Shown: positions 27,497-31,269 of the stretch, piece after piece
Position numbering within the stretch: the stretch's first letter is position 1
Layout of the letters: each line of letters begins with the position of its first letter
Assembly: GCA_017535435.1 (NCBI GenBank)
Contig: JAFXTY010000010.1
Location: forward strand, 1 to 46,126
DNA: 46,126 nt
Reading direction: 5' to 3'
Source of the DNA: Spirochaetia bacterium
Lineage (GTDB): Bacteria; Spirochaetota; Spirochaetia; CADAEX01
The notes under the pieces: generated by a model
What the model saw: the letters and a program-made list of their open reading frames with translations, nothing else
The model's database searches: none
What the model was told of the DNA's origin: nothing
Program-made: the position numbers and the translations under genes

Positions 27497-27931
27497 TTAT
27501 ATTCTCTGCAACTCCTGGTCGTATGTCTTAAGTGGGACTGCCAGGCGGCGGGCGAGCTCAAGATAAGAGGCATCGTAGTAAGTAAGGCCGTTCTCCGAGG
27601 CCAGGTCAAAGATCCGCTGCCGTATCTCTCCGGTGCTCTGTATATCGGTTATGATTGGCAGCTGCTGCAGGTTGAACAGCAGGTCTCTTGCATCAGCTTT
27701 TGAGATAGGTATCTGCTTTGAGTTTCTTCTGCGGGTGCGGCAGAGCAGGGTGTTTCCAATCTCGTACCAGAAAAGCTGCGGCACATGAATCTGTCCGTTG
27801 TGTGTGATTATATATTCAATGTCATTCACGCAGTCCGAGAGCTCATCATCGCAGATTCCGTTAAGAAGATATGCTGCCATAAAAGAGGTGTCTGCCACAA
27901 AGCAGGGGAATGTGTCAGTATTTTCTTCCAT
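27497..27931 (-). CDS. PIN-domain toxin (VapC family)
   Basis: A 144-residue protein with the acidic residues of a PIN-type RNase: FVADTS (D14), WYEIGN, YYDASYLELA and TYDQEL. VapC toxins cut specific RNAs, often tRNA or rRNA. It overlaps the upstream antitoxin gene by 17 bp, the usual tight coupling. The target cannot be predicted. Confidence 0.88.
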   Translation of the reverse strand: MEENTDTFPCFVADTSFMAAYLLNGICDDELSDCVNDIEYIITHNGQIHVPQLFWYEIGNTLLCRTRRRNSKQIPISKADARDLLFNLQQLPIITDIQSTGEIRQRIFDLASENGLTYYDASYLELARRLAVPLKTYDQELQRI

Positions 27932-28199
27932 AATCCCTCATCTCCTTGATATCTGAAGCTGTAAGTGGAGCAATCCCTTTCTTCTCCATTTTGAAGGATA
28001 ATTCTGAGGATATCCTCATGATACGCCTGTGGGCTTCCATTGCTGCTGTGTTCTGTATTTTCTTCTCTCCCTGAAGCACTGCCACCTGCTTGCCGTTCTT
28101 TGATATGCGCACAGTTGTCCCCTCCTGCACTTTTCGGAGCAGTTCGGAGAAGTGGGTCTTTGCATCGAATGCACCGATATCGATTACTGCCAATGCCAT
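27915..28199 (-). CDS. Phd/YefM-type antitoxin
   Basis: About 94 residues. The N-terminal DNA-binding part is IDIGAFDAKTHFSELLRKVQEGTTVRISKNGKQVAVL, the Phd/YefM fold; the C-terminal part (EMRDYGRKY) would wrap the toxin. I set the start at 28199 because AGGAGG lies just upstream on that strand; the open frame extends to 28226 but without support. It should neutralise the toxin and repress the pair. Confidence 0.85.
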   Translation of the reverse strand: MALAVIDIGAFDAKTHFSELLRKVQEGTTVRISKNGKQVAVLQGEKKIQNTAAMEAHRRIMRISSELSFKMEKKGIAPLTASDIKEMRDYGRKY

Positions 28200-28368
28200 A
28201 TATGCCTCCTGTACATAAGATAACACAGCCTTTGGGAAAAATCAACCAGTTTTTAAACCAGTCTGATTAAGCTCCTCCAACCCAGGCGCATGGACTGCGG
28301 CAGTTGATATTAAGCAGATTTTGCAAGCTGAAGTGCCCACCGAAGATATTGATTTCTCCACCTCTGCG

Positions 28369-28512
28369 TTGTACCACAAACACTGCTATTGCACATTTGA
28401 AGCCATCAAAAGGCATGCCCGTCGATATTGCGGCCCGTAGGGAACGCACTTTATCGAGCGGGTGTGTCTTATTGCTGGCTATTATTGACTATCTTAAGTG
28501 TTTGTGGTACAA
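28369..28512. repeat. MITE-like element, copy B, with 16-bp perfect terminal inverted repeats
   Basis: TTGTACCACAAACACT (28369-28384) is the exact reverse complement of AGTGTTTGTGGTACAA (28497-28512). Read on the minus strand, the interior matches copy A at 22168-22303 in order (CAGCAATAAGACAC, GCTCG, CCCTACGGGCC, GCATGCCTTTTG). The right end contributes the -10 and part of the spacer of the T-box promoter. Short open frames in it are not convincing as genes. Confidence 0.65.
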
Positions 28513-28513
28513 A
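28485..28513 (+). promoter_or_regulatory. Promoter of the T-box transcript
   Basis: TTGACT (28485-28490), 17 bp, TACAAA (28508-28513). The expected start near 28520 is a few bases before T-box stem I, which fits well. The -35 context equals that at 8396-8407 (grpE). Confidence 0.65.
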
Positions 28514-28519
28514 AGCTAT

Positions 28520-28798
28520 ACATGCGTTGACGAAAATCCAGTAGGACGCTGATAACCTTCAAAGAGAGCTGCCGGACGGTGCGAGGCAGTGGAGGCCGGT
28601 GCTCTGAATTACCTTTCCGAGCAGCGCTTTGAAACACTGCCAAGGTGTAGTAGAAGTCGCCGGGTACGCCCGTTACAGCGCAAGGGTATGTCTGTACCTG
28701 ATAAGGCTCTTCCTGCGAAGGTGGGGCAAACAGAGGTGGTACCGCGGGAACTCTCGCCCTCTGTGTTTTCTTTTTGTAAACACCGGGATTACATTTTT
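28520..28798 (+). promoter_or_regulatory. T-box riboswitch controlling the acyl-CoA synthetase gene
   Basis: All parts of a T-box can be placed. Stem I base: 28524-28529 with 28622-28627. Loop-E/specifier side: AGTA 28540-28543 opposite GAATTACC 28606-28613. Upper stem: 28543-28551 with 28597-28605 (8 of 9 pairs). Then AGAGAG, and the distal stem CTGCC/GGCAG around GGACGGTGCGA. A stem II-type element is CGGG-TACG-CCCG followed by TTAC. Stem III: about 28705-28728. Antiterminator: ACAGAGG (28730-28736) with CCTCTGT (28758-28764), 7-nt bulge TGGTACC (28737-28743), and inner helix GCGGGA/TCTCGC. The bulge UGGU fits a tRNA ending ACCA. The competing hairpin is CCC..GTGTTT / AAACAC-C-GGG (28757-28787), followed by a short T-run. 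The codon is UUA if read directly after GAA; AUU and UAC are the other registers. Confidence 0.9.
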
Positions 28799-28810
28799 AG
28801 GAGCAATTTT

Positions 28811-30445
28811 ATGGTTATTACTGAGCTTCTTGAACGCAATTCAAGGCTGTATGGTGGAGAGTGTGCACTGGTTGAGATCAATCCGTCGGAGAGCAGGGAC
28901 AAGGCTGTCACATGGCGCGAGGCAAGCCTTATAGAGGGAACTCAGGATGCCCCATACCGCAGGGAGATGTCCTGGCGTTCCTTCGACCGCAGGGCAAACC
29001 GCTTTGCAAACCTTCTTTTAAGCCGTGGTCTCAAGCGAGGTACAAAGGTTGGTATTCTTATGATGAACTGCCTGGAATACCTTCCGATTTATTTCGGAAT
29101 CCTCAAGGCGGGCTGCATTGTGGTTCCTATGAACTTCCGCTACTCAAGCGAAGAGATTACCTACTGCCTTGACTTGGCTGATGTTGAGGTCTTAGTCTTC
29201 GGACCTGAGTTCATAGAGCGTATGGATGCAATCCAGAACCGGATTCCAAAGGTAAAATATCAGTTCTTTATTGGAAAGAACGGTCCTTCATATACCGAAA
29301 ACTTTTTTGACCTTATGCATTTCTTCTCGCCAGATGTACCTCCTGTGCTCTTCACAGAGGATGATTTGGCCGCCATCTACTTCTCATCCGGTACCACCGG
29401 GTTCCCTAAGGCCATCCTCCACAAGCACCGCTCCCTTATAAGCTCATGCATTGTGGAGCAGAAGCACCATGGCCAGACCCGGGACGATGTATTCCTTTGC
29501 ATTCCCCCGCTGTACCACACCGGTGCCAAGATGCACTGGTTCGGAAGCCTCCTTGCAGGAAGCCGGGCTGTGCTTCTTAAAGGTGTCAAGCCGGAGTGGA
29601 TTCTCCGCACTGTTACAGAAGAAAAATGCACCATAGTCTGGCTCCTTGTGCCATGGGCACAGGATATCCTGGATGCTATAGACTCAGGCCGCATCAAGCT
29701 GGAGCACTATATGCTGGACCAATGGCGACTTATGCACATAGGAGCACAGCCCGTGCCCCAGAGCCTTATCCAGCGGTGGCTCAAGGTGTTCCCTCATCAT
29801 CAGTACGACACCAACTACGGCCTTTCCGAATCCATCGGACCAGGCTGTGTCCACCTTGGAGTTGAGAATGTGAACAAGGTTGGCGCTATCGGCAAGGCCG
29901 GCTATATGTGGCAGACCAAGATTGTGGATGACAAGCACAACGAGGTTAAGCAGGGAGAGGTAGGGGAGCTTGCAGTAAAGGGCCCTGGCGTCATGGAATG
30001 CTACTACAAGAACCCTAAGGCCACTGCTGAATCCCTTGCTGATGGCTGGCTCTTCACCGGCGACATGGCCAAGGAGGATGAGGATGGCTTCATCTACCTT
30101 GTGGACCGGAAGAAGGATGTGATCATCACCGGAGGGGAGAACCTTTATCCGGTTGAGATTGAGAACTATCTCCGCAAATACGACAAGATCAAGGATGTGG
30201 CTGTCATCGGCTTCCCTGATCCACGGCTTGGAGAGATTGCAGGTGCCATCATCGAGATCAAGGAGGGAATGACCTGCACCGAGGATGAGATAAATGAGTT
30301 TGCCCAGGGGCTGCCACGGTACAAGAGACCTAAGAAGATAATCTTTGCCAAGGTGCCGCGGAATCCTACTGGAAAGATTGAGAAGCCCCTCTTACGCAAG
30401 ATGTACAGCACCACCAACCTGGTGGCAGAGGAGATCGGCGAATAA
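28811..30445 (+). CDS. Acyl-CoA synthetase (AMP-forming), T-box regulated
   Basis: A 544-residue class I adenylate-forming enzyme. P-loop YFSSGTTGFPKAILHKH, acyl-side YGLSES, GWLFTGDMAKEDEDGF and DRKKDVIITGGENLYPVEIE (hinge), and the catalytic lysine in NPTGKIEK. It activates a carboxylic acid to its CoA thioester; chain type is not readable. The start at 28811 is set by AGGAG at 28799-28803; the frame runs open to 28589, but that part is T-box RNA. T-box control implies a role in amino-acid supply, for example activating isovalerate, 2-methylbutyrate or isobutyrate for reductive carboxylation. folP starts 5 bp after its stop, so folP and cdaA may be in the same transcript. Confidence 0.88.
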   Translation: MVITELLERNSRLYGGECALVEINPSESRDKAVTWREASLIEGTQDAPYRREMSWRSFDRRANRFANLLLSRGLKRGTKVGILMMNCLEYLPIYFGILKAGCIVVPMNFRYSSEEITYCLDLADVEVLVFGPEFIERMDAIQNRIPKVKYQFFIGKNGPSYTENFFDLMHFFSPDVPPVLFTEDDLAAIYFSSGTTGFPKAILHKHRSLISSCIVEQKHHGQTRDDVFLCIPPLYHTGAKMHWFGSLLAGSRAVLLKGVKPEWILRTVTEEKCTIVWLLVPWAQDILDAIDSGRIKLEHYMLDQWRLMHIGAQPVPQSLIQRWLKVFPHHQYDTNYGLSESIGPGCVHLGVENVNKVGAIGKAGYMWQTKIVDDKHNEVKQGEVGELAVKGPGVMECYYKNPKATAESLADGWLFTGDMAKEDEDGFIYLVDRKKDVIITGGENLYPVEIENYLRKYDKIKDVAVIGFPDPRLGEIAGAIIEIKEGMTCTEDEINEFAQGLPRYKRPKKIIFAKVPRNPTGKIEKPLLRKMYSTTNLVAEEIGE

Positions 30446-30450
30446 CCAAT

Positions 30451-31269
30451 ATGGGCCTTATCTCCTCCCTACGCGAGAAAAATAAGATGCCCCTGGTAAT
30501 GGGAATTCTCAATGTCACACCAGACTCCTTCTATGCCCCAAGCAGGAAGGAGTCGGTTTCTTCAGCCCTTGAAGCTGCCCTGGCTATGGAGCAGAATGGG
30601 GCTGACATCATAGACATCGGAGCAGAGAGCACAAGGCCAGGTTTTGCCCCTGTGAGTGCCGAAGAGGAGATGGAACGCATAATCCCTGTTATAGAAGAGA
30701 TATGCAAGCACACTTCAATCCCTATTTCTGCAGATACCCGGAAAGGGAGTGTGGCAAAGGCTGCCCTGGATGCCGGTGCCCGCATTGTAAACGATATTTC
30801 CGCAGGTACTTACGATTTTTCAATAATTGAAATTGTAAAAAATTATAAATGTGATATTATATTAATGCACAGTCAGGAGAAGGCTCAGTATTCTGATGTG
30901 GTTTCAGAGGTCAGGGATTATCTTGTATCCCGGGTCGAGACCTTTAAGAAGGCTGGTGTTCAGGCCGATAAGATAACCCTGGATCCTGGCCTTGGCTTTG
31001 GAAAGGATACGGAGCACAACCTTGATCTGATGCGCCAGATGGAACAGCTTTCGGTACTGGGTTATCCGGTTCTCATAGGATGTTCCCGCAAACGTTTTGT
31101 AGGGGCAGTCACTGGTTCAGATGTGGAAGACCGGCTGGCCGGGACGTTGGCAGTAAATGCCTTTGCCGCAGCCCGTGGTGCAGCTGTGCTCAGGGTTCAT
31201 GATGTGAGGGAGACATCTGATATGGTTAAGATGCTCTTTGCCCTTGGAGATATTGCAGTCAGGAGGTGA
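30451..31269 (+). CDS. folP: Dihydropteroate synthase
   Basis: A 272-residue TIM-barrel enzyme joining pterin pyrophosphate and p-aminobenzoate in folate synthesis; the sulfonamide target. Signatures: MGILNVTPDSF, DIIDIGAESTRPG, NDISAG and DPGLGFGK, and near the end SRKRFVG and RVHDV. All catalytic blocks are intact. It begins 5 bp after the acyl-CoA synthetase and ends 3 bp before cdaA. Confidence 0.96.
   Translation: MGLISSLREKNKMPLVMGILNVTPDSFYAPSRKESVSSALEAALAMEQNGADIIDIGAESTRPGFAPVSAEEEMERIIPVIEEICKHTSIPISADTRKGSVAKAALDAGARIVNDISAGTYDFSIIEIVKNYKCDIILMHSQEKAQYSDVVSEVRDYLVSRVETFKKAGVQADKITLDPGLGFGKDTEHNLDLMRQMEQLSVLGYPVLIGCSRKRFVGAVTGSDVEDRLAGTLAVNAFAAARGAAVLRVHDVRETSDMVKMLFALGDIAVRR

Follow-up and report, generated by a model that had tools for sequence, protein, structure and literature searches.

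The window, a 46,126-nt stretch of DNA from a Spirochaetia bacterium, contains a T-box leader whose specifier codon is UAC (tyrosine; positions 28610-28612). The leader lies just upstream of a gene for an AMP-forming acyl-CoA ligase. We think it probable that uncharged tRNA-Tyr acts through this T-box to switch on a horizontally acquired ligase at tyrosine starvation, and that the ligase helps to supply tyrosine from an arylacetate. (Features are on the plus strand unless stated otherwise.)

Positions 28518-28764, from stem I to the antiterminator, match the Rfam T-box family RF00230 at 101.9 bits (E = 1.8e-21; the gathering score is 93), and the alignment covers the full model (positions 1-219 of 219). 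With this bit score and E value, the match is far beyond chance, which bears out the T-box that had been proposed by an earlier, sequence-only reading of this DNA. The landmarks named in that reading also lie where it put them: GAATTACC at 28606-28613, AGTA at 28540-28543, and TGGT at 28737-28740. In the specifier loop, AGUA and GAA (28606-28608) are the 5' and 3' sides of the S-turn, as judged from the sequence, the Rfam alignment, and the parse by our script. The script also identified the linker U (28609), the base that follows the codon (28613), and the helix below the loop (GAAA at 28532-28535, which pairs with UUUC at 28614-28617). The sequence-only reading took the region to be one base short, but GAAUUACC aligns without gaps to the consensus specifier bulge of RF00230 (GAA-auuca), so the loop has a normal length. 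The bulge is GAA plus five nucleotides (UUACC). The thrS leaders of spirochaetes also have five nucleotides after GAA (GAA + AACCA), and a shorter bulge, GAA + UACA, is the form of many tyrS leaders. The minimum-energy fold of stem I did not recover the specifier loop, and 156 of 200 shuffled sequences folded equally well.

A promoter-like sequence (TTGACT-N17-TACAAA, 28485-28513, by eye) precedes the leader. There is also a perfect 16-nt inverted repeat at 28369-28384 and 28497-28512. The second copy overlaps the spacer and the -10 of the promoter-like sequence and is also found at two related loci (L003 and L214); the first copy was not found in either. Farther upstream, on the minus strand (27497-28245), two small ORFs resemble a PIN-domain toxin-antitoxin pair (by eye).

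At the other end of the leader, the antiterminator (28730-28764, -15.5 kcal/mol) includes the UGGU bulge (28737-28740), and just 3 of 200 shuffled sequences fold as well. A weak terminator-like hairpin (28757-28787, -7.8 kcal/mol, with a 3x1 internal loop) would compete with it and is followed by a T run (28794-28798) and a Shine-Dalgarno-like AGGAG (28799-28803, by eye). The hairpin is identical in two of the three congeners, and its loop is altered in the third. The competing hairpin has been retained across the genus despite its weakness, so transcriptional control by termination is likely, not certain. Alternatively, the switch might act on translation by sequestering AGGAG. The weakness of the hairpin would fit this, as the other T-box leader in the host genome, upstream of a symporter, has a strong terminator (-13.5 kcal/mol); also, when 28745-28805 is folded to its lowest energy, part of the Shine-Dalgarno region is paired. 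But that fold is no better than those of shuffled sequences (z = -0.42; 64 of 200 are equally good), and the hairpin and the T run are conserved in all four leaders from the host genus, so we view translational control as somewhat unlikely.

The controlled gene (28811-30445) encodes a protein of 544 amino acids with the domains PF00501 (E = 4.6e-72) and PF13193. We propose that it is an arylacetate ligase, probably for 4-hydroxyphenylacetate. It passes none of the NCBIfam cut-offs shown, and its best matches in PDB are FadD-type. Five nucleotides after the ligase is folP (dihydropteroate synthase, 30451-31269, from profile matches), with cdaA, ybbR, truA, udg, and priA downstream. These genes may be read through from the T-box; that folP or the others have a role in the tyrosine system is doubtful.

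In the T-box operons of Clostridia, the orthologous ligase is followed by an SSS-family symporter and/or iorA, iorB, and a PaaK-like ligase (for example at L005, L014, L016, and L032; genes were named by eye, with profile checks for L005 and the L014 symporter). Linkage to iorA/iorB was seen in clostridial orthologs (L005, L016, L032, L054, and others) and not in the host spirochaete. Our search of the host genome found two T-boxes. The second, on contig C54, also reads UAC, and it precedes a homolog of the symporter from the clostridial operons (60-65% identity to those of L014, L015, and L079 and 56% to that of L006). An aminotransferase-iorA-iorB cluster is present in the host as well (contig C53), and the same search found no T-box for it. 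The host's IorB scores above the cut-off of its model; its IorA is below the curated cut-off (516 vs. 650.9 bits) and is 37-41% identical to IorA from the clostridial operons.

The host, a gut spirochaete, seems to lack the usual route to tyrosine. We did not find prephenate dehydrogenase (PF02153) in any of four genomes from the host genus or in the one genome from the sister genus, and it is present in all three of the other spirochaetes, from outside the family. Three of the four genomes from the genus, the host's among them, have prephenate dehydratase, and all eight spirochaete genomes that were checked have chorismate synthase (aroC). With a dehydratase and no detectable dehydrogenase, the host is probably able to turn prephenate into phenylalanine but not into tyrosine. 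This agrees with a switch for tyrosine and not for phenylalanine. Clostridia are another matter. Prephenate dehydrogenase and prephenate dehydratase are each found in 29 of 33 clostridial genomes, and we saw no correlation between the ligase's T-box and the loss of tyrA or pheA: the genomes that lack them are scattered, some having the T-box and others not. As 17 of the 19 searched clostridial genomes with a T-box at the ligase (counting the remnant at L028) keep prephenate dehydrogenase, the T-box does not track auxotrophy in Clostridia.

A pattern for the anticodon arm of tRNA-Tyr matched the host genome twice, and one match is a tRNA-Tyr gene with the anticodon GUA, which matches the specifier, a discriminator A, and no encoded CCA. 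(Two long tRNA genes on contig C42, also considered as candidates for tRNA-Tyr, turned out to be tRNA-Ser.) The UGGU bulge is complementary to the resulting NCCA end, as is typical of UGGN bulges. The sequence-only reading was right to expect a discriminator of A from UGGU, and also right that the bulge does not single out one tRNA: it fits tRNA-Tyr but others too. We suggest that the GUA anticodon of uncharged tRNA-Tyr pairs with UAC and that its ACCA end pairs with UGGU, which would stabilize the antiterminator and allow the ligase to be expressed. The ligase would activate the arylacetate, and tyrosine would then be produced by an IOR-type 2-oxoacid:ferredoxin oxidoreductase together with an aminotransferase, whose genes lie elsewhere in the genome. 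Running in this direction, the route would substitute for the absent prephenate dehydrogenase step.

A different explanation keeps the tyrosine codon but supposes that the ligase is catabolic or acts on some other acid (a fatty acid, indoleacetate, or phenylacetate), and that the T-box is left over from a clostridial operon. The top-scoring curated models for the ligase are indeed for fatty-acid ligases, although none is above its cut-off; 59 of the best 80 orthologous loci have no T-box core in a motif search that gives lower bounds; and the host retains the ligase alone, beside folP. However, the T-box and its UAC are kept in all four species of the genus that were examined, even though the ligase has different neighbors in one of them (G237), and the second tyrosine T-box precedes the homolog of the operon's symporter. 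Furthermore, a T-box turns on its genes when the cognate amino acid is scarce, which suits supply and not breakdown. We consider a leftover T-box to be unlikely, and we prefer the arylacetate-to-tyrosine reading.

The identity of the codon depends on the register. The sequence-only reading had correctly identified three candidates, UUA (Leu), AUU (Ile), and UAC (Tyr), and left the choice among them undecided. It had proposed a comparison with T-boxes of known amino acid, and this comparison, together with the orthologous leaders, fixes the register. We used a script to parse the specifier bulge in such leaders, and the correct register was judged by the downstream gene. (The script chooses the best complementary lower helix, so the pairing of this helix is itself selected for.) In the "+0" register, the codon is positions 2-4 counted from the end of the specifier bulge. 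This register gives ACC (Thr) in 24 of 25 thrS-type leaders from spirochaetes (L087-L111). In the remaining one (L090, at G382:C88), the specifier region is enlarged or unusual, and the parser could not read it. By eye, a threonyl-tRNA synthetase gene lies 3' of the 14 plus-strand leaders among the 25 (the 11 minus-strand leaders are outside this count), and all four of the synthetases that were tested pass TIGR00418. The same register gives UAC in 10 of 11 clostridial tyrS leaders, which are the T-boxes selected by eye among 30 tyrS loci; the other one (L126) was misparsed by the script, yet it contains GAAUACA. These tyrS leaders show two spacings, GAA-UAC-X and GAA-N-UAC-X. Under the calibrated register, the window has GAA-U-UAC-C, so the specifier is UAC. 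The specifier rule of TBDB is the same register, and the TBDB article puts UAC at a fraction of 0.99 of Tyr specifiers (PMC7778990).

We also examined the leaders of orthologous ligases, among the best 80 loci. A T-box core (at most 2 mismatches to the core motif, which is not an Rfam scan and gives a lower bound) lies within 300 nt upstream of the ligase at 21 of the 80 loci, as compared to 0 of 80 for stretches of the same length within the gene. We left out L028, where the 260 nt preceding the core showed no stem I. (At L028:2929, the antiterminator core is close after a promoter-like sequence, and this may be the remnant of a deleted T-box.) Adding the window and G316 (L214) to the other 20 gives a set of 22 leaders. 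In 16 of these, the codon found by the script is UAC: the window, L003, L004, L214, L005, L016, L023, L025, L032, L037, L043, L049, L053, L074, L075, and L079. All four leaders from the host genus have UAC, within GAAUUACC or, in L003, within GAAUUACA, where the usual A follows the codon. The script reads UUC (Phe) in four leaders (L006, L014, L017, and L022). It also reported UUC for L015, but from the wrong place; by eye, L015 has CAAAUACC, with UAC. The reading of L054 (GAAUACAG) is ambiguous: the codon is ACA (Thr) according to the script, and the leader also contains UAC. The sequence-only reading had stated that a conserved codon other than its three candidates would count against it. 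There is no such codon in the spirochaete leaders, but the four clostridial orthologs with UUC do depart from it. Three of these (L014, L017, and L022) are sisters of L016, with UAC, in the tree of the ligases, so a single base seems to have switched the leader from one aromatic amino acid to another.

The upstream regions of the ligase orthologs share another motif, the near-palindrome CTTWAAAGTG (for example at L007, L008, L009, L025, L028, and L074). With at most 1 mismatch, it occurs in 16 of 80 upstream regions and in 1 of 80 shuffled regions. In the better cases it is directly after a TTGAC box. As it is present also where no T-box is visible, it is perhaps a candidate repressor site.

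Calibration with leaders of known amino acid led us to reject the other two registers. If the codon were UUA, directly after GAA, then the ligase would respond to leucine starvation and might be, for example, a branched-chain acyl-CoA ligase. The discriminator A is compatible with tRNA-Leu as well, and UUA is found in all four leaders from the host genus and in L005. But the other 17 of the 22 ligase leaders lack GAA-UUA, the -1 register would yield AAC or CAC in the thrS-type leaders and AUA or GUA in the tyrS leaders, and the operon partners in Clostridia are ior genes, not branched-chain genes. Also, in TBDB, UUA accounts for just 0.01 of Leu specifiers (PMC7778990). A leucine specifier is therefore highly improbable. 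AUU (Ile) has a negligible chance of being the codon: a purine follows it, as the sequence-only reading pointed out, but it would take the A from the GAA of the S-turn, its register is used by none of the calibrating leaders, and in TBDB it makes up 0.01 of Ile specifiers, while specifiers with a 3' U seldom have a matching tRNA (PMC7778990).

The ligase and its leader look to have been acquired horizontally from Clostridia. In a tree of 70 ligases (12 of the best 80 loci were dropped by a start-motif filter), the four proteins from the host genus form one clade (support 100/99) that is nested within Bacillota. The window's leader groups with the leaders of clostridial ligases, away from the thrS leaders of spirochaetes, in a nucleotide tree without support values. 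From these two trees, leader and gene probably moved together, and the donors were apparently gut Clostridia. The ligase is found (E ≤ 1e-100) in 37 of 392 spirochaete genomes, and only the four from the host genus are also among the spirochaetes with T-boxes. In a second ligase tree (88 rows, quick method), six ligases from the other 33 genomes fall apart from those of the host genus. In one congener (G265, L003), the ligase has folP and cdaA after it, just as it does in the window; this shared neighborhood makes a mis-binned contig unlikely.

T-boxes seem to be widespread in spirochaetes, mostly with one per genome, and most of those whose specifier was read are Thr-type and precede thrS where the gene was inspected. 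We found T-boxes (E ≤ 0.001) in 72 of 392 Spirochaetota genomes, 25 of which have matches above the gathering score, as compared to 0 of 6 spirochaete genomes in a 2008 survey (PMC2494555). In the open-licence literature, we found no report of a T-box in a spirochaete or of this ligase operon.

A genome from the sister genus has a T-box (L086, at G297:C13:42130-42411) whose codon, misparsed by the script, is UAC when read by eye. It precedes an enzyme of the tyrosine phenol-lyase/tryptophanase family (L143:2478-3923), which scores 431 bits against tyr_phenol_ly (cut-off 720.7) and is above the cut-off for the tryptophanase subfamily. Neither prephenate dehydrogenase nor prephenate dehydratase was detected in this genome. 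A tentative idea, which we are slightly inclined to doubt, is that spirochaetes without prephenate dehydrogenase have a tyrosine-supply regulon under tyrosine T-boxes, comprising the acquired ligase, the symporter, and, in the sister genus, the lyase-family enzyme running in reverse (phenol + pyruvate + ammonia → tyrosine).

With its specifier read, an acyl-CoA ligase that had only a vague name becomes a candidate enzyme of tyrosine supply that can be tested. If the prediction is correct, then the assimilation of aryl acids in the rumen would be tied to a named and regulated gene.

The window's leader resembles tyrS-type T-boxes (RF00230) in its stem I with the AGUA/GAA S-turn, its UAC specifier, its UGGU bulge, and its antiterminator; and its GAA and UAC are separated by one base, which is also the case in some, but not all, tyrS leaders. 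Unlike those, it controls an acyl-CoA ligase, and in a spirochaete. A route from aryl acids to aromatic amino acids, via an arylacetate-CoA ligase and IOR, has been proposed in methanogens. The system described here is similar in the type of enzyme and the linkage to ior, with an AMP-forming ligase and iorA/iorB in one operon in Clostridia. It differs in that the ligase is under a tyrosine T-box, the ior genes of the spirochaete are unlinked, and the substrate is a prediction. In Bacteroides, an AMP-forming arylacetate-CoA ligase encoded beside IOR was assayed in a 2026 paper, which suggests a role in the biosynthesis of aromatic amino acids (PMC13285125). Finally, in the Bacillus cereus group, tyrosine T-boxes are found on genes for tyrosine synthesis, according to the 2008 survey (PMC2494555), so there too a T-box is placed on genes that supply tyrosine. 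What those T-boxes govern is the synthesis of tyrosine from shikimate or the hydroxylation of phenylalanine, whereas the window's T-box would control the activation of an arylacetate.
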